From the IMG/VR virus record IMGVR_UViG_3300049491_000293, positions 1-32,062 of that record: a stretch of DNA of 32,062 nt. The stretch is one strand, 5' to 3'. Numbering within the stretch: position 1 is the stretch's first letter; the number at the start of each line of letters is the position of its first letter. Both the position numbers and the translations under genes were made by a program. The stretch comes from a virus. The notes under the pieces were generated by a model. It made no database searches, was not told the DNA's origin, and was given only the letters and a program-made list of their open reading frames with translations. Shown piece by piece: positions 1 through 29,789 of this stretch.

Positions 1-329
1 GTGCCACCCGGCCAGATCACTGCGGCGGGCCACGTGATGGTGCGGCTACCGCCCGTGCCCTGCGTGATCAGCAGGTCCAGGTGCCCACCGCGGGTGGGCA
101 GAACCACGCTGGTCGCGTTCGCGTTCAGGGTGACGGCAACGACCGCGGTGCCGTTGTTCCCGGACAAGTCGAGCGGACCCGCCGCGTTGATCACGAGCAC
201 GCTGGGTGCAGGCGCAATCGCGATCTGAAAGGGAGACGAGGCGTTGCCCGTTCCCGTAATGACCAGGCCAGGCCCCGCCGTGATGGTGCACGAGCAAGAC
301 CCTCCTGCGCAACCGCATCCACCAGGCAT
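1..329 (-). CDS. Minor tail protein, N-terminal part (runs off the left edge)
   Basis: An open frame of 109 codons starts at ATG 329-327 and continues past the window edge without a stop. The start is supported by a purine-rich GGAAGGGG about 7 bases upstream. The protein begins MPGGCGCAGGSCSC, a Gly/Cys-rich head, followed by a beta-rich segment (TITAGPGLVITGTG, then VTLNANATSVVLPTRGGHLDLLITQG, and TITWPAAVIWPGG). Such short beta motifs are common in phage tail-fibre and minor tail proteins. It is the last gene seen of the leftward tail operon, which supports a tail-tip or fibre role. The specific function is unknown, and the C-terminus that would identify it is missing. Confidence 0.7.
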   Translation of the reverse strand, partial: MPGGCGCAGGSCSCTITAGPGLVITGTGNASSPFQIAIAPAPSVLVINAAGPLDLSGNNGTAVVAVTLNANATSVVLPTRGGHLDLLITQGTGGSRTITWPAAVIWPGG

Positions 330-343
330 TAGACGCCCCTTCC

Positions 344-358
344 GAAAGTCCTACTTTT
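344..358. promoter_or_regulatory. Start-associated palindrome, copy 1
   Basis: GAAAGT-CCT-ACTTTT, one mismatch to the family consensus GAAAGT-N3-ACTTTC. It sits between the stop codon of the upstream minor tail gene (TGA at 360-358) and the ribosome-binding site of the partial gene starting at 329. It therefore lies in a 28-base intercistronic gap, directly before a start. It is probably a regulator site or a short mRNA hairpin. Confidence 0.6.
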
Positions 359-1554
359 CATGTCGTCTCATCGGCGGCTGCCGGGAGCAGGGTTACTGCG
401 ATGTTCTCACCGTCGGAGGTCTCCGTCACGACCACCTTGTGGAGTTTCTGCATCTGGCTCATCTGTCGCGAGTTCAGCGTAGCGAGCAGAGGCATGTGCG
501 TACCGGGAACCAGGTCGTCGATCGACAGCCCCGGCGACAGCCGGAGGCCACTGCTGTCCGGGACGCGAACCTCGACCGGAACCGGGTTCCGACCTGCCAG
601 GTTCCGCTGGGCCTGAGAGTTCAGATAGGACTGGGAGGGGGCCTCTTCGTCATCCTCGTTCTCGACGGTGTGAATCTTTGCCCACGGACCGTAGTAGTCG
701 TCTTCCGCGCCAGCGCCACCGTAGCGACCGTCCTGCGCCACGGCGAAGGCAAGTGCGGCGAAGTCGGAACCGTACGCAGTGACGATGACCTCTCCGAAGA
801 AGTCCGCTTCGGTCAGCGTCCGCGTCTGACCGATGTTCCGGTTCACGTCCCAGATGTGGATAGCCCGCCCGACCACGGTGTAGTCCAGGCCACCGGTCTG
901 CGCATAGTTGTCCAGGTGCTCGCCCACGGTCATTTCGTACGGCTTCGTGTAGGCGCTGGTGCGGACCTCATCCGGGAAGTGATGCGCCACGAAGTAGGGC
1001 AGAACGTTGGCCGGAGGGGTGAGCGCTTCCCACGCCGGGACGGTGACAACCGTGACCCCATCGTTTGCCAGGTACGACATGGGCTGAGCCATTTCCCAGG
1101 CCATGATCGTTTCCATGCGAGTGGTGACCTCGGTGGGCCGCGTGAGCGGCCCCAGGTTGGCACCGGTGTCCGGGTCGATGTTGTCGCGGTACCGGTTGTC
1201 CCACTCCTTGGACAGCGGCCGAGCGTAGACGTACGCCATGACATCGGTGGCCTGAATCTCCACGTAGTCCGCGTGCCACCCGACAAGGTTGACCGGCCCT
1301 TCCCATACACGGTCGTCCCCACGGAAGATCACCAGTTCGTGGCGCTTCGGCTCGATGTTCCGGAGCACGTCGATCTGCGCGACACAGGCCCCACCCTGGA
1401 TCACGACGGATGCCGTGGACATCTCATCACGACTGCGGGACCAGGTGATCGAGGACAGGTCGACCAGTTCCGCAACGCGGGACCGACCACCACGATCCGA
1501 GAGGTAGGCGTGGTGGCCTTCGACGCAGTTGCCTCCGTAGAGGCCGCGAACCAC
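358..1554 (-). CDS. Minor tail protein, tail-tip (ReqiPepy6 Gp37-like family, probable)
   Basis: This 398-aa protein is read from GTG 1554-1552, not from the more distal upstream ATG at 1656. The GTG has GGAGG five bases upstream and forms TAGTG with the stop of the previous gene. The N-terminal half (ELVDLSSITWSRSRDEMSTA, then a segment ending RHELVIFRGDDRVWEGPVNL) has the pattern of siphovirus Gp37-like tail-tip proteins: a short beta strand, an R-x-D/E-x-S loop, then a strand-rich segment with W/G turns. These proteins usually form part of the hub below the distal tail ring. Its place after the tape measure and two other minor tail genes agrees. No catalytic motif is seen. The family assignment is by eye; the tail role is well supported by context. 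Confidence 0.65.
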   Translation of the reverse strand: MVRGLYGGNCVEGHHAYLSDRGGRSRVAELVDLSSITWSRSRDEMSTASVVIQGGACVAQIDVLRNIEPKRHELVIFRGDDRVWEGPVNLVGWHADYVEIQATDVMAYVYARPLSKEWDNRYRDNIDPDTGANLGPLTRPTEVTTRMETIMAWEMAQPMSYLANDGVTVVTVPAWEALTPPANVLPYFVAHHFPDEVRTSAYTKPYEMTVGEHLDNYAQTGGLDYTVVGRAIHIWDVNRNIGQTRTLTEADFFGEVIVTAYGSDFAALAFAVAQDGRYGGAGAEDDYYGPWAKIHTVENEDDEEAPSQSYLNSQAQRNLAGRNPVPVEVRVPDSSGLRLSPGLSIDDLVPGTHMPLLATLNSRQMSQMQKLHKVVVTETSDGENIAVTLLPAAADETT

Positions 1555-3719
1555 TACGTCCTCCGCGTCAGGGTGACGGCGGCGGTCAGGTTGCCGGGAG
1601 GGGGAGAGGTCCCGCCGACCGGCGTATCGAACGACACCAGATAGGACATCCCGCAAGAGAGCACCGGCCAGGTGGCCGGTGTCCCGCCGGTGCCGTAGAG
1701 CAGGTGGTCAGCCGCGACAGTAGGCCCGCCACTCACCGATGCGAACGTGCGCTGAAGTTCTCCATCCAGCGTCATGACTGAGGTCGCCGGGATATACGAG
1801 ATGATCTGCTCGGCGCACCAGTTGGCCGTGTCAATCTGCCCGATCGGGTAATTGAACGGGTTCGGGTAGATGCGGATGCGGACCTGACGCTCGGCGAGCG
1901 AGTAGGTGCGCAACTCGAAGGTCGGCAGAACGTCGAGCCAGTCCGAGACCTCTGACGCCGGGATCATCGCGTAGTACCGACGCCACAGGCCCACGTCCGT
2001 GATGCAGGGGTCCGAGATAACCGGCGGCCGAGGCGGGAGCGGGACGGGCGGGCAGTCCGGGTCGATCAGGTCGTCGCTGAGGCTGGTTTCGACCTGCTCG
2101 CGGATGGACGCCGACGCGTTGGGGTCGCCCATCCAGGAGTAGACATAGCCGTTGGCGTCCGGGTAGGAGCCGTCGAAGTAGTCGATCGGCACAGCACCCA
2201 GCGTGATCATCGCGGCATCCGCAGTGATCGTGTCTCCGCCGACCCACATCGACCAGCCGGTCCCAGAGACATCGAGCGCGCGGATAGACGCCCACTCTGC
2301 GAGCGGCGGAGAGTCGGCGATCACCGTCAACTGCGTCCATGAGCCAGCAGGGCAGACCACCGGTGTCCCGAGGTTGAGCGAGATGAATGTCCCCGCGGCG
2401 TTCATCCAGTACAGTTCGGCGTTCATGCGCTGTGAGCGTGACGGCTTCACGAAGATTGTGCCGACGTAGGAGGCACCAGCGGTCACGTCCGTCCGGCCGA
2501 CAGTTCCCGTGTCCGGGCCGATGCGGAAGTTTCCCGACGTGGCGTCCGTGTAGAACGTGGCACGAGCACCCTTGGTGCCCGACTGAGGGTCGGACACCTG
2601 GGCCACGACGCCGGTCCCACCGGAGGTCGTCGATCCCTGCGCAAAGGTCAGCCACCCGGTCGGTGCGTGACCTACAGCCTCAGACGTGGAGTTGCTGGCG
2701 GTACCTGTCCAGCGGTAGGTCTGGTCGCTGGTTGCCGTCGTCGCGCCGTCGAAGAAGTCACCAGGACTGGTCGACGGGTTGGGCTGGACCATCGGAGTCC
2801 ATGCCGTCCACGGCGACTGATACGCGCCGTAGTTTGCACTCCCCCGGTACTCGTAGGACGCGCCAGGGGTCAGGCCAGTGACCGTTGCAGTGGTGCTGGT
2901 TGTGGTCGTCGATGTGACGGCACCGGTAGAGCCGAGCCGATACTCCAGCGTGTAGAGCGTGACACCAGAGGTTCCACCCGGAGGCGAGAACGTTGCGACT
3001 GACGACAGGCCCGAAGGGGTGGGCGTGATGGTCATGCCCGGAGCGACGGCAGGCAGGGTGCTCTGGTTCAGCGCTCCCGACTTGACCGAGTAGCCCTGGC
3101 TGTTGTGCGCGTAGACGACCCACCAGTACGGCGTGCCCGGAGTGAGTCCGGTGACTGCGTAACTGGTGGTGCTTGCGCCCTGGCCGTAGTCGACGCGCTG
3201 AGCCGCGTCGTCGTTCTGGAGCGCCAGTGCGCTGTTGTACCGACGCAGAAGCATCGAGTCGATCGACGCGCCACCATCAGAGGGGATGTTCCAGTTCAGG
3301 GTCATCCCGGTCGTGCTGATATTCGTGGCCGTCGGCGTGTTCGGCGCGCTCGGAACCGTGGCGTCTGCGCCGTCGTAGGTTGCCCCGGCTGAGGTAGAGC
3401 CCAGCGTGTCGTACTGCGCGTAAATCTGCGCGCCCGAGTTGCCGTCCGCTCCGACGGTGATCGTGTCGTCACGGCTGTGGAGCAGGAAGTTGTCGCCGTT
3501 GCGGAAGTCGTAGCCACCCGACCAGTTGGCGACGTTGCCGACTCCATCCACGTACAACTGCCATGCGGAGCCACTGCCCGAGTACGTCGGCGAGTAAGAG
3601 AGTTTGTCGATCCAGACTTCGGTGTGCTTCGACACCGTGCGGCCGGACTGCCAGTTGTACCAGACCTCGATGCGCAGGCGGAACGGCCGGTTCGGGAAGT
3701 TCCCGGTTCCAGTTGCCAT
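1554..3719 (-). CDS. Minor tail protein with FN3-like domains and carbohydrate-binding-like modules
   Basis: A 721-aa protein from ATG 3719-3717, preceded by GGGGGGAAGAG. The first ~120 residues are an adhesin-like beta domain (VWYNWQSGRTVSKHTEVWID). Two fibronectin type III-like domains follow, at roughly residues 125-225 and 225-320. Each has a proline-rich start, W or Y in the B strand and the hallmark VTGLTPGTPYWW / VTGLTPGASYEY. Residues ~350-530 look like a jelly-roll carbohydrate-binding module flanked by two copies of an FDG...Y-x-W-x-G...S-x-S motif. FN3 and carbohydrate-binding folds are typical of virion proteins that touch the cell surface. It lies between two other minor tail genes and overlaps the next start by one base (TAGTG). 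Receptor binding is an inference; the structural class is fairly sure. Confidence 0.75.
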   Translation of the reverse strand: MATGTGNFPNRPFRLRIEVWYNWQSGRTVSKHTEVWIDKLSYSPTYSGSGSAWQLYVDGVGNVANWSGGYDFRNGDNFLLHSRDDTITVGADGNSGAQIYAQYDTLGSTSAGATYDGADATVPSAPNTPTATNISTTGMTLNWNIPSDGGASIDSMLLRRYNSALALQNDDAAQRVDYGQGASTTSYAVTGLTPGTPYWWVVYAHNSQGYSVKSGALNQSTLPAVAPGMTITPTPSGLSSVATFSPPGGTSGVTLYTLEYRLGSTGAVTSTTTTSTTATVTGLTPGASYEYRGSANYGAYQSPWTAWTPMVQPNPSTSPGDFFDGATTATSDQTYRWTGTASNSTSEAVGHAPTGWLTFAQGSTTSGGTGVVAQVSDPQSGTKGARATFYTDATSGNFRIGPDTGTVGRTDVTAGASYVGTIFVKPSRSQRMNAELYWMNAAGTFISLNLGTPVVCPAGSWTQLTVIADSPPLAEWASIRALDVSGTGWSMWVGGDTITADAAMITLGAVPIDYFDGSYPDANGYVYSWMGDPNASASIREQVETSLSDDLIDPDCPPVPLPPRPPVISDPCITDVGLWRRYYAMIPASEVSDWLDVLPTFELRTYSLAERQVRIRIYPNPFNYPIGQIDTANWCAEQIISYIPATSVMTLDGELQRTFASVSGGPTVAADHLLYGTGGTPATWPVLSCGMSYLVSFDTPVGGTSPPPGNLTAAVTLTRRT

Positions 3720-3731
3720 GTCTCTTCCCCC

Positions 3732-5663
3732 CTACGGAATCGTGACGGCGAGAGCGTCTACATAGAGACGGATGTCGGAGTTGGTCGCACCCGCGGCGCT
3801 TGTCCAGGTGACATTCGCACGCGCCCTGACCCGCACCTTCGTCGCCGTTGCGGGGACCGCCACCGACTTGACCGAGAATGCCCGACCGTTGTAGTCAGTC
3901 GTGGATGCCGTGCCGAAGGTCGTGGCCGCACCCAGGCTCGCGGCTCCGTTGAAGAACTCGTACGTCGTGATCAGCGAGTTGACCAGCGTCCCCGGAGAAC
4001 TCCCACCCAGGATCAGGACGGACGACCAGACGCTTATCGAAGCCCTCCGCCCCGTGCCAGCGGGAAGAGACGCATCCTGATAGGCGTCGATGGTGGACAC
4101 TGCCGCCGCGACCGCCGTCGTACCGTTGTCGCCGAGAAGCCGCACGCGGACAGAAGCGGTACCAGCCGCGAACAGTTCCGTCGTGCGGGACAGCACGGTG
4201 AATGCCGTCGGTGCCGTGCCAGATACTACGGCGGTGGCAAGGGTCCAGTCAGTGGTGTTGACCTCCGCGCTCGGATTCGTCGCATAGTTCGTTGCCACCA
4301 CGAGGTTGGCCGCTTCGGCGAGTTCGGCCGAAGGGTAGGGGACCAGGTTGAACGGCGAATCCTGTACCACGGAAGGTGATGTCGGAGCCAGCGTGAGAGC
4401 CTTCGGCTCTCCGTAGATGTACGGCGTAGCCGCGGCAAGAGTGAACTCGATTTCGTAGGCGTGGTAGTTGCTGTTGTGGAAGTGCTGAACGACGAGCGGT
4501 CCCGAGATTGCCGTCAGCCCATGCATCCGGCGACGAAGCGGGTCCAGCACGGCGTCGTAGGTGGCATCCGGCACCGGCACCTGAATTGCCGAGCGCGCCT
4601 CGAAGGTGGACGCCGATGCGTCCGCGGTTCCCACCCACGAATACTGAGCAATGGCCGTGTCTGTGGTGGCCCCATCGAAGAAGTCCGGGGCCGCCGCACC
4701 AGCGGCGACCATGACCTCGGCAATCTCCACCCAGTCCGACACGGATGCCGTCGTACTGATCAGAACGACAGATGCCGATGCTCCCGGTGCCGTGCCAGTC
4801 GTTGTGAAGGTGTACTCCAGCGTGACCGGAGTCGTGGACATCGACAGGCCGGTGGCGATGATGACCTCGCCCGTGGTGGACGTGGGTCCAGACGGCCGGT
4901 AGTTGAGCGTCCACCCCGTCCACGCCTTCGACGTGCGTGCCTTCAACCGCACCGAGTGCTGAGTGCTGGCAGCCAAGGACGCCTTGGGGCCGACGCGCAC
5001 GGTAGCCGTTGTCGCCGTGAAGCGCGCCGCGTACGTGGCGCTGAACGTGGTGCCCGCCACACGGGATGCTGTCGCACCGTCCGAGGACCAACTCGCCGTG
5101 GTTGCCACACGCGCGCTCGGGTCCAGAGCAAGATTGCGCGAGACCACATCGAACGGCGTGTAGTCCGTCATGGTCGGGCGCTCCGGAGGGCAGGTCACCC
5201 AGAAGCATCCGTCGACCTCGCCACACGCGCCTTGGTGGGTAGAGCAGGTGTTGCCGTCCAGCACGGCATCCAGCCAAGACAGCCCCGCGTCCAGCCCGTC
5301 CTGCCCATCGCCAACCATGACGCCACGGACGCGAATCTCGCGGACCGCACGGCGCGTCCCCTGGATCACGCCACCGTCCAGGATACCCTCCTGGATGTTG
5401 GCGGTACGAGTCGAGGAGTCCAGCCCGTCCATTGCAATCGGGTAGATGCCGAAGAACTTATGCGTGGCAGGGTCAGCGTCGTCGTACCAGGGTGCATCGG
5501 CCAGGGTGCCGACGTAGGAGTTCACGCCGAGCGCATCCTCCAGCCCAGGGCAGGGCAGACAGCGGAGCCAGCCCGCCGGACACCCGCTCTCCTCGACGTA
5601 GGCGTACGTCCGGGCCTGGTTGAAGACCTCGGTTCCACCGAGGACGAGGTATCCAGGGAACAC
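3732..5663 (-). CDS. Minor tail protein, distal-tail-like with carbohydrate-binding-like inserts
   Basis: A 643-aa protein starting at GTG 5663-5661, which shares a base with the tape measure stop (TAGTG). Residues 1-170 resemble the N-terminal ring domain of distal tail proteins: MFPGYLVLGGTEVFNQART, then a cysteine-rich stretch, then REIRVRGVMVGDGQDGLDAGLSWLDAVLDG. Residues ~180-350 and ~470-640 are two beta-sandwich modules rich in T, S and A, of the type seen in carbohydrate-binding modules. A short segment with FHNSNYHAYEIEFTLAAATPYIYG lies between and looks like the second half of the distal tail core. An FDG...YSWVG...S-x-S motif shared with the next gene lies near residue 335. The first gene after the tape measure is normally the distal tail protein, which fits. 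Confidence 0.75.
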   Translation of the reverse strand: MFPGYLVLGGTEVFNQARTYAYVEESGCPAGWLRCLPCPGLEDALGVNSYVGTLADAPWYDDADPATHKFFGIYPIAMDGLDSSTRTANIQEGILDGGVIQGTRRAVREIRVRGVMVGDGQDGLDAGLSWLDAVLDGNTCSTHQGACGEVDGCFWVTCPPERPTMTDYTPFDVVSRNLALDPSARVATTASWSSDGATASRVAGTTFSATYAARFTATTATVRVGPKASLAASTQHSVRLKARTSKAWTGWTLNYRPSGPTSTTGEVIIATGLSMSTTPVTLEYTFTTTGTAPGASASVVLISTTASVSDWVEIAEVMVAAGAAAPDFFDGATTDTAIAQYSWVGTADASASTFEARSAIQVPVPDATYDAVLDPLRRRMHGLTAISGPLVVQHFHNSNYHAYEIEFTLAAATPYIYGEPKALTLAPTSPSVVQDSPFNLVPYPSAELAEAANLVVATNYATNPSAEVNTTDWTLATAVVSGTAPTAFTVLSRTTELFAAGTASVRVRLLGDNGTTAVAAAVSTIDAYQDASLPAGTGRRASISVWSSVLILGGSSPGTLVNSLITTYEFFNGAASLGAATTFGTASTTDYNGRAFSVKSVAVPATATKVRVRARANVTWTSAAGATNSDIRLYVDALAVTIP

Positions 5664-8464
5664 TAGGCCACCGCCCTCTCGACGATTCTGTTGACGACCT
5701 CAATCGCGGTGCGCCGCGGGTCGATGGAGCCGTTGACCTGGATCGCACCCTCGGCAATGCTGATCGACTTGCCGCCGGTGACGACGCCACCCGCGGCCAT
5801 GCGCGGCGTGCCGATTCCCTGCGCGAAGGCAGACAGCGCGCGGACCGAAGGGTCCACCGCGCTGAGCGGCCGACGCAGGGGCACGATCGCCTCAGGTCCC
5901 GCCTCGCCCATCAGCACGTGAGTCGGTCCGAAGTGGATGCCACCCATAGCCTGGGGGATTGCACCCCGACCGCCACCGCCGCCACTACTGGCGGCTCCTC
6001 TCGCCGCGCTGGAGGCCGAACTGGCCGCCCCGAAGAGGTCGTTGAACCAGCCGATCGCATCCTGGATCGCGCCGCCGATGTTGTCGAACACGTCGATAAT
6101 CGTCTGTCCGAAGTTGCGGAAAAATCCCTCGATGCCGCTCAGCACGTCCTTGATCTTCTGCTTCAGGATGTCCATGCCAATCTTGATCTGATCCCAGTTG
6201 CCGCCCAACTTCTCGACGACCGTCTTCACGACGTTCTCGAAGTCCTGCCAGGCCGCGGATGCATCGCCGCGGATCAGATCGGCGATGATCTTCAAGCCTC
6301 CGGTGACCAGGGCGTTCCAGACCTCAAAGGCGTCACCGAGGAAGGCAAGCACGTTGAACAGAATCTCGCCGAACAAGGTGGTTTCCTCGCTGGTGCCGAT
6401 CAAGGCTTCGACGAAAGCGGAGAGGACCTCGATGATCCCGGCGATCACTTCGACGCCACCGGCAATGATCGTGAAAAGCGTCGGCAGGAGGGCCTCCACC
6501 AGCGGAGCCAGGTTGGTGATCAGCGGAGCCAGGGATTCGCCCACTTCCGCGAAGGCGGGTGTGAGTGTTTCGAGACCAGCGATCAACTGCTCACTGATGA
6601 TGGTTGCCATTTCCATCAGCGGCGGGATGATCGGAGCAAGAGCAGCGCCCAGGGTATCGAGAGCCGCCGCGATCACGCCGAACACGTTCAGGTTGGCGAT
6701 CACGCCGACGATCTGACCGAGTACCGGGACGAAGTTCGTCAGCGACGCAAGGAACTGCTCGGTGCCCGCGATCGTCGCAGGAGTCACCAAGCCAGCGAGC
6801 GCATTGGCAATCGCGACCACCAGGTCGACGACCGGAGGCATGATCCGCTCAGCCGTCTCAAAGAACTGCTTGATCCGCGCGCGGCCCTCCTCGCTGGAGG
6901 TCCACGTGCTGAACTGCGTGGCAACGTTGGCGATTGCCTCCGCGAACTTCTGGGCGGTCGGGAGGGACTCAACCAGGATGTCGCCGAAAGCATCGCCGAA
7001 GCCGATTGCCGCTGTCGTGAGGGAATCCAGGATGGGAGAGAAGCCCGCGAGCAGAGCGTTGAAGGTCGACACGCCCGCGTCGGACGACAGTGCGGTGAAG
7101 ATTCTGCTGATGCTCTCGCCGACGGTCCCGGCAAACGCGTTGAGATTCTCCGACACCTGCGGCAGTGCGGCCGTGATTGCCTGAATCGACGGTGCCATGT
7201 TCTCGAACATGGCCGTGACGATTCCGGTCTGGAGTCCATGGAACGCAGAGCCCAGTTCGATGAACGCATCCTTGGCGCGCTGAGCGCCCTCCGTCAGAAC
7301 CTCGCCTTCGCCGAAAAGCCCGAAGAACCCAGCCGTGGCGATACCGGCGGCGGCACCTGCCGCAGTAAGCATGGTGACCAGCGTGACCAGCGTGCCGGAC
7401 AGCGCCGAGGTCAGCACAGAAAGCGTGCCAAGAGCGGAGATAGTGAGGGTGATCCAGAACACCGCCTGGCGGAGTCCGTGCGGCAGACCCTTCCATGAAC
7501 CGATCAGCGAGCGGATGCCGCCGACACCACGCCGAGATGCCCGCTGGGTGCGACGCCCGATCGCGTCATTCGCTCGATCAGCGCTATCTGCCGTGTCGTC
7601 AGTCGCGTCCCCCGCGCTCTTCATCAAAGAGATGTAGTTGGCGATGCCCTCTCTGGTCCCAGCCATAGCCTCCCGACCGACCATGAACGTTCGAGTGAGG
7701 CGCGACCATGCCGTGTCCATCCGACCGGCAGAGTCGCGCACGTCGTCCATGTCCGGGCCGAGCGCCTTGATCCGGCCGCCGAAGTCGACGGCCGCGTCCT
7801 TGACTCGGACGAATCCGTTTCGGGTGTTGCGAAGCGCGCGCGTCACGCCAGGAAAAGTCTGCTGAAGGTCTTCGAGGGAGGGCTTCATCGCCCGGAACGA
7901 CTCGCGCAGGTCGCGCATCACGACGATCTGCTCGTCCCGCATCTCGCGGCCCATGGTGGCCATGTCAGTACGGAACTTCCGGATTGCGCCGCCGGTGTCC
8001 TGGATGAACTTGGTCGTCTTGGGGAAGGATGCCGCCCAATCGTCGATCGTCGGCTTCATTGCCTTGAACGACTCGCGCAGTTCCGCCATGGTCTTGATGT
8101 GGTCGTCGCGAATATCGCCAAAGACCTCGCCGAAACCACGACGTACCTTACTCAGCGTGCTGGTCGTGAAGTTCTTGATCTGACCGCCGAGGTTCTTGAA
8201 CCCCTCCCGCAGACGGAGCGTCTGCCGGTAGAGCCCACGCACTGCACCCGAGGACAGCACGAGAGTCTGCATCATGTCGCCGAGAGACTTGGCGAAATCC
8301 TTGACGGAGTTCCGGAGCGCCTTGCTCATCGCCTTCTTGAAGGCGGGCTCGAATGCCTGACCGCCAGCGATGGCGGCTACCCGCGCCGCATTCCGTACCT
8401 CACCGGGGAGCGAGGTCCCGTCGACGTGGACCTCAATCTCGGCTTCGCCCCATACGGCGGCCAC
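5663..8464 (-). CDS. Tape measure protein
   Basis: A 933-aa protein from GTG 8464-8462 (TAGTG overlap with the chaperone frame). It is the longest alpha-helical protein among the tail genes. Residues ~1-320 are charged helices. Residues ~335-390 are a hydrophobic stretch (FWITLTISALGTLSVL onward) that may enter the host membrane. Residues ~400-780 are long amphipathic helices rich in A, I and L. The C-terminus has GPTHVLMGEAGPEAIVPL, a motif seen in many siphovirus tape measures. It sets tail length and is probably ejected during infection. Residues 118-148 and 175-205 are an internal duplication. Length suggests a tail of roughly 130-140 nm by the usual rule of ~1.5 Å per residue. Position directly after the chaperone genes confirms the call. 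Confidence 0.93.
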   Translation of the reverse strand: MAAVWGEAEIEVHVDGTSLPGEVRNAARVAAIAGGQAFEPAFKKAMSKALRNSVKDFAKSLGDMMQTLVLSSGAVRGLYRQTLRLREGFKNLGGQIKNFTTSTLSKVRRGFGEVFGDIRDDHIKTMAELRESFKAMKPTIDDWAASFPKTTKFIQDTGGAIRKFRTDMATMGREMRDEQIVVMRDLRESFRAMKPSLEDLQQTFPGVTRALRNTRNGFVRVKDAAVDFGGRIKALGPDMDDVRDSAGRMDTAWSRLTRTFMVGREAMAGTREGIANYISLMKSAGDATDDTADSADRANDAIGRRTQRASRRGVGGIRSLIGSWKGLPHGLRQAVFWITLTISALGTLSVLTSALSGTLVTLVTMLTAAGAAAGIATAGFFGLFGEGEVLTEGAQRAKDAFIELGSAFHGLQTGIVTAMFENMAPSIQAITAALPQVSENLNAFAGTVGESISRIFTALSSDAGVSTFNALLAGFSPILDSLTTAAIGFGDAFGDILVESLPTAQKFAEAIANVATQFSTWTSSEEGRARIKQFFETAERIMPPVVDLVVAIANALAGLVTPATIAGTEQFLASLTNFVPVLGQIVGVIANLNVFGVIAAALDTLGAALAPIIPPLMEMATIISEQLIAGLETLTPAFAEVGESLAPLITNLAPLVEALLPTLFTIIAGGVEVIAGIIEVLSAFVEALIGTSEETTLFGEILFNVLAFLGDAFEVWNALVTGGLKIIADLIRGDASAAWQDFENVVKTVVEKLGGNWDQIKIGMDILKQKIKDVLSGIEGFFRNFGQTIIDVFDNIGGAIQDAIGWFNDLFGAASSASSAARGAASSGGGGGRGAIPQAMGGIHFGPTHVLMGEAGPEAIVPLRRPLSAVDPSVRALSAFAQGIGTPRMAAGGVVTGGKSISIAEGAIQVNGSIDPRRTAIEVVNRIVERAVA

Positions 8465-27686: not shown

Positions 27687-27821
27687 CTACTTCTCCCCCT
27701 CCGAAGGGGTTGACGCGGCGGGGTCGACCATTTCCGATCCTGACCCGACGCCGACCACTCCCTCGACCTGGTGGATCACGCCACCGAACTCGTTGTACTG
27801 AACTTCCTCAGTTCCGCCCAT
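27687..27821 (-). CDS. Unknown small acidic protein, 44 aa
   Basis: From ATG 27821-27819; the ribosome site AAGGAG lies nine bases upstream, and a nearer ATG is too close. The stop is TAG at 27689-27687. The sequence is MGGTEEVQYNEFGGVIHQVE, then GVVGVGSGSEMVDPAASTPS, EGEK. It is the first gene of the leftward group after the long gene-poor stretch. The strong ribosome site supports it. No family is recognised. Confidence 0.6.
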   Translation of the reverse strand: MGGTEEVQYNEFGGVIHQVEGVVGVGSGSEMVDPAASTPSEGEK

Positions 27822-27879: not shown

Positions 27880-27930
27880 CAAAAAGAATAGCCCCCCGGC
27901 GGCTCTAGGTGAGCGGCACCGGGGGGGCTA
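27880..27930 (-). terminator. Rho-independent terminator, minus strand
   Basis: TAGCCCCCCGG (27889-27899) pairs with CCGGGGGGGCTA (27919-27930); one extra G makes a small bulge. On the minus strand it is followed by TTCTTTTT. This has the shape of a terminator for leftward transcription arriving from the gene-poor region. No leftward gene lies upstream of it, so it implies an untranslated leftward transcript or a safety stop. Confidence 0.5.
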
Positions 27931-28285
27931 TGGTGAGTTCTGTCGAGGAACGCGGCTTCATGCTACCAGGCATACCGCGTTCCGGGCTACAGGCTCCGAA
28001 CTGAATATTGTACCCCGCTTCGGCGGAAGGGGCTACCAGATCGAGTCTGGTAGTGACAGGTAGGGCGGCGCTCCTCAATCAAGGGCTGGCATCCGAGAGG
28101 TACTCGCGCGCGGTGGTCAAGGCATGACCGGACACCGTTCGAGTCGAACGCGATACCTCATACCCCGTCCGTGACGCTCACGCGTGGCCCTGATTACTTC
28201 AGCGTTCCCCCCAGAACGGGGGGGACCTCTGCCCAGCACGGAACTTTAGTCGGATGCCGTGTAGGGGCCGCCTGGAGCGGCCCCA

Positions 28286-28300
28286 GAAAGTTCTACTTTC
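28286..28300. promoter_or_regulatory. Start-associated palindrome, copy 5
   Basis: Perfect GAAAGT-TCT-ACTTTC, directly after a GGGGCCGC/GCGGCCCC hairpin (28264-28284). It lies in the gene-poor region, more than 400 bases from the next start. It is therefore one of two copies that are not close to a start codon. Confidence 0.65.
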
Positions 28301-28317
28301 CCAGGCATGGGTTGTGT

Positions 28318-28332
28318 GGGACATAATGTCCC
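28318..28332. promoter_or_regulatory. 15-bp palindrome GGGACATAATGTCCC
   Basis: A perfect 7-1-7 palindrome, 18 bases after the palindrome at 28286. Half of it recurs beside other copies (GGGACATTATG at 9219 and GTGGGACAATAG at 26505), so it may be a second protein-binding element or part of a promoter (CATAAT as a -10). Confidence 0.4.
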
Positions 28333-28385
28333 CACCACGGTGATGCATGAGTAGGTGGTGAGCGTAGTCAAACAGCGCTCCCGGT

Positions 28386-28414
28386 TAGGCTCCACCCCCC
28401 TAGTCTGGTAGACT
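28386..28414 (+). promoter_or_regulatory. Candidate promoter in the gene-poor region
   Basis: TTAGGC, 17 bases, TAGACT (28409-28414), with TGG directly before the -10 as in an extended -10. The -10 area (GTCTGGTAGACT) closely resembles that of the strong promoter at 31738 (GTGTGGTATACT), and both carry an inverted repeat over it (AGTCT-GGT-AGACT here). The -35 is weak. It would transcribe toward the gene at 28750. Confidence 0.4.
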
Positions 28415-28447
28415 TGACGAAGCGGGGCAACGAGGCCCCACTTGAAA

Positions 28448-28462
28448 AAAAGTAGAACTTTG
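28448..28462. promoter_or_regulatory. Start-associated palindrome, copy 6 (degenerate)
   Basis: AAAAGT-AGA-ACTTTG: the inner AAAGT/ACTTT is kept but the outer base pair is lost. It lies about 35 bases after the likely start point of the candidate promoter at 28386, inside an A-rich stretch. Confidence 0.4.
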
Positions 28463-28749
28463 TCACTTGAAGGAGGAACGCGCACAAAAACACCCGAATA
28501 TGGGTCTACTCGGAGTACCCAAAAACTCCGCCCAGTCGCTAGGGAGAACTCTCTCTAGAACACCGAATAGTAAAACTATTTGGTAAGCACTCGGATAGGT
28601 CAAGCGACCGCATTCCCCGTGATCCGCTGGCGTCAAGCCCCGGCATCCGGCCTGTAATGCACCCGCTAACCTCATCCGTGAACTCGGATACGGGTTGACT
28701 AGGTAGTCCACTCTCACTACGCCGCGAGGCAGATTGAGAGAGCCACATC

Positions 28750-29397
28750 ATGGCTAAGACCACCACCAACACTCACACCCGTTCGATCGACGAAATCGTC
28801 GAGGAGTTCGCGCTCATCTCCGACACCGGAGACCTGCGCCTTCACCAGTCCCGACTCGCTTACGAGTACATCGGGTCCACCGAAGGTGCGGATGCCGCCG
28901 AACTTCGGGACGTGTTCCGCAAGACCGCGAACGCCGCGCTCCTGCGTCACCACGAGCCCATCCTCAGCGAGCCCGCTGTCACCAACCTGGTGAACACATG
29001 GAAGTACATGCTTCGGGCGAACGTCGACACGAACCCCGAGACGAACTCGCAGGCGGGAGCCGTGGCGAAAGCCGCGTTCAACTTCGCCAGCCAGTCGTTC
29101 CGGGCCAAGGAAGAGAACTACGTCATCCCCGCCATTGAGGCGATCCAGAATGGTGCCGACCCCGTTGCCACCTTCATCAAGCAGAAGTCTGCCTTGCTGA
29201 AGGACAAGAAGGCGGACCAGGAGCAGAAGGCCGCGACGCGCAAGCAGAAGCAGGCCGAACTCGACAAGCAGATCACGTTCGACGGTCTGGTCGGGACGCT
29301 CTCTCTGGTGACCCCCGAGAACGTCGGCAAGTACACCGACGAGCAGAAGTCCACCATCCGCGACCTCCTGGCCAACCTGGCCGCCCTGGTCGCGTAG
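28750..29397 (+). CDS. Unknown alpha-helical protein, 215 aa
   Basis: From ATG 28750, preceded by TTGAGAGAG. It begins MAKTTTNTHTRSIDEIVEEF, then RLHQSRLAYEYIGSTEGADA, VTNLVNTWKYMLRANVDTNP, and has a highly charged helix (KADQEQKAATRKQKQAELDK) near residue 160. No catalytic or DNA-binding motif is evident. It is the first gene after the structured region and may be strongly expressed from it. A role in regulation or DNA metabolism cannot be excluded, but nothing in the sequence shows it. Codon use is like the rest of the window. Confidence 0.75.
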   Translation: MAKTTTNTHTRSIDEIVEEFALISDTGDLRLHQSRLAYEYIGSTEGADAAELRDVFRKTANAALLRHHEPILSEPAVTNLVNTWKYMLRANVDTNPETNSQAGAVAKAAFNFASQSFRAKEENYVIPAIEAIQNGADPVATFIKQKSALLKDKKADQEQKAATRKQKQAELDKQITFDGLVGTLSLVTPENVGKYTDEQKSTIRDLLANLAALVA

Positions 29398-29499
29398 CAC
29401 CCACCCATCGGCGCAATCCCGCGCCAACCCTGGGAGTGGACTATCTAGCCAACCCGTATCCGCGGATTCAGTCACTTGATAGCGGCATGCCTCCACCCA

Positions 29500-29532: not shown

Positions 29533-29688
29533 ATGGCCACCACTTTTGACCCGAGCCCGTCGTCATTCACCGACACCTGCCCATGCGGGCGGGAGCATTG
29601 GATCACTGTCGACGACTCGATCATCGCTATCGAATACCGCTGTCCGGAATGCGGGCAAGCCTGCCGCATCACGTTCACCAATGACTGA
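29533..29688 (+). CDS. Small zinc-ribbon-like protein, 51 aa
   Basis: From ATG 29533, with GGAGG six bases upstream, to TGA at 29686-29688. The sequence is MATTFDPSPSSFTDTCPCGR, then EHWITVDDSIIAIEYRCPEC, GQACRITFTND. C16, C18, C37 and C40, with a fifth cysteine at 44, form two cysteine knuckles separated by a strand-rich stretch, the layout of a zinc ribbon. Such proteins often contact nucleic acids or RNA polymerase, but the target is unknown. Confidence 0.65.
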   Translation: MATTFDPSPSSFTDTCPCGREHWITVDDSIIAIEYRCPECGQACRITFTND

Positions 29689-29740
29689 AGACATCACCGA
29701 TTGGTTGCTCGCCCATGCGCGGGACAACCCTGCCAACTAA
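29681..29740 (+). CDS. Possible 19-aa peptide
   Basis: From ATG 29681, overlapping the end of the previous gene by eight bases, to TAA at 29738-29740. The sequence is MTEDITDWLLAHARDNPAN, a short amphipathic helix. The coupled start makes it possible, but the length is too small for certainty. Confidence 0.25.
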   Translation: MTEDITDWLLAHARDNPAN

Positions 29741-29789
29741 CCCTGGCATGCCGCGATCTGGTGACTGAATCCTTTGCTTGACCCTGCCG

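Follow-up and report, generated by a model that had tools for sequence, protein, structure and literature searches.

Layout of the locus and its control region

The window analysed here, meaning the whole stretch of 32,062 bases, is an entire IMG/VR record, which is assigned to the linear class and may be a fragment. Large structural genes, including those for terminase and portal, run leftward, and rightward genes occupy the DNA from 28750 on; between them lies the stretch 27889-28749 (Table 1). Among named isolates, phages of Curtobacterium, Arthrobacter and Microbacterium come nearest in the large terminase, at ~52% identity or below, and the left arms of these phages are arranged unlike the window's. 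Nearer relatives are metagenomic (L003/L014, L006/L084, L007/L087, L008/L088, L009, L015/L085, L086 and L097). Four complete relatives close into circles via terminal repeats of 69-127 bp, with their breaks outside the counterpart of the stretch. In the window, the first gene to the left of the stretch, a 44-aa ORF, has no match in Pfam.

Table 1. Coordinates of features in and around the stretch (positions in the window)
Feature	Position	Strand	Remarks
Small ORF, 44 aa, MGGTEEVQYNEFGG...	27690..27821	-	First gene leftward of the stretch; AGGAGA upstream
10-bp perfect hairpin ATAGCCCCCC/GGGGGGCTAT, then TTCTTTTTG on minus strand	27888..27931	-	
Hairpin-rich spacer	27947..28284	no strand preference	Window-specific, absent from relatives
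Spacer hairpins	27947-27983, 28015-28026 (UUCG), 28033-28053, 28097-28159, 28200-28231, 28264-28284		
Operator-like palindrome AAAGTAGAACTTT	28287..28299	-	Motif matches
Palindrome GGGACATAATGTCCC	28318..28332	.	Similar GTGGGAC-containing motif at same place in relatives
-10 box TAGACT of putative rightward promoter	28409..28414	+	Conserved
5' leader of rightward operon, ~329 nt	28421..28749	+	Conserved in L003, L006, L086, L097
Operator-like palindrome AAAGTAGAACTTT	28449..28461	+	Directly after expected start site
AAAGTNNNACTTT palindrome family	345, 9202, 19013, 26461, 28287, 28449, 29501, 29831, 29875, 30068, 30458, 31126, 31813		
Conserved leader RNA module	28490..28588	+	Conservation and fold
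Module stem CGGAGT/ACTCCG	28511-28516/28525-28530	+	
Module stem CTAGGGAG/CTCTCTAG	28539-28546/28551-28558	+	
Module stem	28562-28571/28575-28584	+	
Bracket helix 1, 5' arm	28685..28716	+	
Hairpin covering ribosome site GAGAG (28736-28740)	28711..28740	+	5' strand overlaps end of bracket-1 5' arm
Bracketed gene 1	28750..29397	+	215-aa protein, modelled as all-helical
Bracket helix 1, 3' arm	29431..29462	+	
Bracket helix 2, 5' arm	29464..29491	+	One base past bracket 1
Bracketed small ORF 2, 51 aa	29533..29688	+	GGAGG upstream
19-codon ORF	29681-29740	+	Overlaps end of small ORF 2
Bracket helix 2, 3' arm	29745..29772	+	

The initial annotation had described the stretch as crowded with inverted repeats and free of any credible gene, and so it proved. 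Twelve inverted-repeat pairs of at least 8 nt lie where they had been reported, the nested outer helix GAGGTA/TACCTC (28097-28102/28154-28159) and the C-UUCG-G loop can be read directly in the sequence, and the absence of a credible gene was borne out on checking. Perfect stems of at least 8 bp with loops of at most 40 number five against 0.44 expected, a count reached by none of 100 shuffles. No tRNA was detected in the stretch, and a comparison of its DNA with phages and plasmids gave no homologue, the Vibrio matches (E 0.1) being chance. Relative to shuffles the whole stretch folds with z of -5.0 on the plus and -5.9 on the minus strand, but unusual folding does not extend along its length as had been claimed: among 150-nt segments those covering 27976-28200 show nothing unusual (z +1.3 to -0.5), and two alone stand out, 28201-28350 with z of -4.0 on the plus and -3.1 on the minus strand, and 28501-28650, which with -4.2 and -0.6 is clearly plus-strand specific.

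The segment ~28287-28460 is a divergent control region, comprising palindromic operators, a conserved -10 box and, at 28318-28332, a further palindrome. The AAAGTNNNACTTT palindromes, with 17 matches in the window at up to 2 mismatches against 0.05 expected, are likely operators of a phage regulator. In relatives their centres are phage-specific, and three complete genomes carry 26-40 exact copies. The genome of L009 contains no operators of this type; positions 1607-2305 of the reverse complement of its bases 1-6700 hold repeated palindromes of type AAAGGGCCCTTT, perhaps L009's own operator family. A GTGGGACA motif recurs in both orientations at apparent promoters (28318-28332, 26493 and 27873), in relatives as well as in the window, and is possibly a second regulator site, the short motif by itself being not above chance. 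The -10 box, TAGACT or TATACT, is common to the window, L003, L006, L007, L008, L085, L086 and L097, and the rightward message would be expected to start near 28421.

Within the leader of that message, the module at 28490-28588 is highly conserved among five phages (the window and four relatives) and folds unusually well on the plus strand only (z -3.7). Its CTAGGGAG/CTCTCTAG stem has one pair with both sides changed in L003, five sequences being too few for a formal test. In the leaders of L003 and L086 the module stands in tandem duplicate (CCCAAAAA...GGGAGAACTCT); the window has one recognisable copy. Pattern matches to the leader in L090, L092 and L093 are chance occurrences inside coding DNA, and a conserved leader peptide was rejected, reading frames differing among phages.

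The left half, 27889 to ~28284, is bounded on its left by the hairpin at 27888-27931, which with its T-run resembles an intrinsic terminator for a leftward RNA, although the TATTCT there could alternatively be a -10 box. Folded alone, 27985-28266 reaches only moderate z on the two strands (-2.2 and -1.8). No counterpart of the left half occurs in any relative found, nor in public phages or plasmids, with the sole exception of a short match in L008 around the 28264 hairpin and operator; a candidate homologue in L126 shares just 19 bases. In its place L003, L007, L008, L085, L086 and L097 have a leftward gene that, judged from sequence, is winged-helix-like, and L009 has a gene of similar kind at the same position; the window and L006 are without one. 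Translated comparison (the L097 query excepted) gave no convincing similarity that would make the left half a decayed copy of this gene.

Taken together, 27889-28749 is not one large RNA: a spacer is followed by a divergent control region and then by the 5' part of the message of a phage operon. The initial annotation had proposed that the entire stretch forms a single large structured noncoding RNA, and both the fold z of about -5 and the surplus of perfect stems lean that way. We nevertheless consider it very improbable: a conserved putative promoter sits within the stretch, its parts differ in conservation (28490-28749 is kept in relatives and 27889-28284 in none, most having the leftward gene there), and the noncoding counterpart in L006 is not unusual in structure, folding like its shuffles (z -0.6). 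The plus-strand preference that had been read from G-T positions is clear only in the leader, the left part folding about equally on both strands. GOLLD and ROOL, proposed for comparison, are large structured RNAs, some of them carried by phages (PMC12286853); unlike these, the locus has no conserved large noncoding RNA and no match to any Rfam family covariance model, the whole window giving zero matches at gathering thresholds and unrelated chance matches only (E > 4) in a relaxed search. A cos or pac packaging region had also been suggested, in keeping with the abundant inverted repeats and the terminase genes ~2.4 kb away, but is very unlikely: relatives carry the stretch in the interior of their contigs, the four complete genomes form circles with breaks elsewhere, and the left half is unconserved while the terminase is conserved. 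The third suggestion, a long regulatory leader, holds for the right-hand ~330 nt, with their conserved putative promoter and structured module. It is possible, if rather unlikely, that 27889-28284 makes up a leader or attenuator of its own, directed leftward, whose RNA would start near 28.3 kb, run through the hairpins and stop or read through at the minus-strand terminator (27931-27880) ahead of the small leftward genes. The terminator-like hairpin, the leftward ORF downstream and the relatives' winged-helix-like gene, which starts from the same side, agree with this; against it, no leftward promoter was identified and a covariation test lacks any homologue. Such a leader would concern the left half only, and is compatible with the account of the rightward message that we favour below.

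Complementary flanks of consecutive cistrons

Matching the region against the window's own sequence revealed that 28685-28716 recurs inverted at 29431-29462, flanking the gene at 28750-29397. This gene belongs to a conserved family, and its product is modelled as all-helical (pLDDT 82), without a match in Pfam, PHROGs, the PDB or viral folds; the family was not found in bacterial genomes. The bracket is present in seven phages (the window and six others), each time around a homologue of gene 1. In the alignment 93.5% of cells are paired, both sides have changed at 7 of the 24 core pairs, and the covariation score of 0.224, against 0.089 for shuffled alignments, was reached by 0 of 500 shuffles; shifting the partner by 1-3 columns nearly abolishes the signal. 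One mismatch, A.C, is fixed in all seven. L008 carries a matched one-base insertion in both arms, and in L009, an eighth and divergent phage, a bracket occupies this position too, around a gene of ~235 aa that looks different. A pattern match in L099 turned out to be without a bracket.

Immediately downstream is a second bracket, represented by seven helices in six phages. Here 92.1% of cells are paired, both sides have changed at 9 of 27 pairs, the covariation score is 0.332 against 0.141 shuffled (0 of 500), and a U.U mismatch is fixed in 7 of 7. The enclosed ORFs (45-97 aa) are mostly unrelated-looking between phages, though the arms are conserved, so coding constraint offers no explanation for arm conservation. 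L085 contains two such helices in a row, 2a and 2b, with energies of -49 and -47 kcal/mol between own partners against -34 and -35 across partners, a preference that argues against two sites co-drifting under one binding protein. Pattern matches to bracket 2 in L100, L103 and six bacterial contigs are chance, with no bracket and no other above-chance similarity to the window.

Across the set, each 5' arm finds in its own 3' arm the best partner or one within about 1 kcal/mol of the best (-40 to -62 kcal/mol), and adjacent helices are 1-7 nt apart. In the four complete relatives no further repeat around a gene scores comparably; among all loci compared for it, only one other pair (L030, with a 160-base gap) equals the better brackets. 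Sequence comparison, albeit of seven sequences per helix from a single phage clade, thus gives strong support to the pairing, covariation, tandem order and restriction to the locus. Covariation among relatives, which the initial annotation had suggested as a check on its large RNA, is present, but in long-range helices with only one arm inside the flagged interval.

RNA helix or DNA sites, and a proposed working

The complementary flanks of one gene, with their compensatory changes, are what a long-range helix between 5' and 3' UTR would leave behind, and the flanks very probably do form one. That it acts in the plus-strand mRNA is, we think, quite likely. This assignment rests mainly on gene and promoter being on the plus strand, both arms and the gene lying downstream of one conserved -10 box. 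In duplex stability the plus strand is ahead in 12 of 15 brackets, and of the wobble cells 22 are G.U on the plus strand and 11, which read A.C there, would become G.U on the minus strand, a modest bias. The arms might instead be inverted DNA sites for binding, recombination or replication that evolve together, any RNA helix being irrelevant. We take this seriously because operators in these phages change in concert: palindromes are many, and their centres differ from phage to phage together. It is nonetheless improbable. Not only are all 15 brackets inverted and placed around a gene or cistron, but the arms match over 25-35 nt, even at their distal ends, which differ freely from one phage to the next. 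The two brackets of one genome retain separately matched arms, the L008 insertion is matched, mismatches fixed across phages rule out simple homogenisation, and L009 keeps its bracket in a genome without such operators.

We lean, with some reserve, towards an RNA reading in which a divergent control region and 5' leader precede first cistrons that would each be closed by a long-range helix of ~25-35 bp. The message would start near 28421 and run through the leader with its hairpin module into the bracketed cistrons; on completion of a cistron's transcription, the two flanks would clamp to form a closed loop. The likeliest role of the helix would be that of a double-stranded stalk for processing or protection, marking each cistron off as a separate RNA unit, with RNase III the obvious candidate enzyme; the mismatches, whose position is constant from phage to phage, may indicate a recognised site. 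The brackets do resemble an RNase III stalk in being long, near-perfect duplexes around a product, and by this analogy a processing or protection role is plausible, if tentative.

A ribosome-site switch at gene 1, compatible with a stalk, is a more doubtful proposition that draws on folding predictions with the interior of the ORF kept unpaired. When folded without the 3' arm, a hairpin ahead of the start codon hides the Shine-Dalgarno (SD) sequence in seven phages. Adding the 3' arm raises predicted exposure of the site from 0.00 to 0.58 in the window, and the gain is clear in five of the seven phages and small to negligible in L006 and L007. The clamp may thus loosen the hairpin and favour translation of complete messages. 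No overlap with a ribosome site was seen in bracket 2, so enclosure itself seems the general feature, which favours processing or protection, with low confidence as to which of the two. If the enclosed cistron is actively translated, ribosomes might hold back the helix or melt it, a consideration that counts against the clamp. We incline, if only slightly, to a string of clamped cistrons, in which the first two or three genes each have their own covarying helix, with fixed mismatches in a similar position, and a single machinery, be it RNase III of the host or some phage factor, would process or protect each separately.

Relation to known systems

Control of bacterial and phage mRNAs is usually ascribed to local hairpins, and in the intervening sequence (IVS) of 23S rRNA the flanks are paired. 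Among the known systems nearest to the arrangement proposed here are the leader-trailer helices of pre-16S and pre-23S rRNA, in which a long helix between complementary flanks closes off a product RNA inside a larger transcript, with several such units in tandem, and which in E. coli are important even independently of RNase III (PMC10250234); what the brackets enclose, by contrast, are short cistrons of a phage operon that code for protein. A 3' UTR that pairs with the 5' UTR of its own message, with involvement of the ribosome-binding site, is known from icaR of the bacterium Staphylococcus aureus, where the pairing creates an RNase III substrate and the short motif UCCCCUG blocks the SD; the brackets span 25-35 nt, come in tandem, lie upstream of the SD and are predicted to free it (PMC3868564). 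The Coxiella IVS carries an ORF on a segment excised by RNase III, a likeness in which cutting is only proposed for the brackets, but it lies within rRNA and is discarded, whereas the brackets are in operon mRNA around the operon's own genes (PMC4990558). In E. coli operons, too, every ORF is its own structural unit, although that ORF-centric structure is a statistical folding tendency and here a dedicated covarying helix stands at the ORF borders (PMC5318159).

Long-range UTR pairing and enclosing stalks are thus known separately; for cistron-enclosing mRNA helices, in tandem around successive cistrons, a limited literature search, which does not prove absence, found no description. If the reading is correct, an operon message can be split up into loops complete in themselves, much as rRNA precursors are, and the brackets offer an example of closed-loop mRNA from a bacterial virus that is open to test. 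Inverted flanks around a single gene also make a sequence signature that can be scanned for elsewhere. As a separate observation, the lowest plus-strand fold z of the window (-6.1, against -4.1 on the minus strand) falls at 31651-31800, where the last of the listed rightward genes ends.
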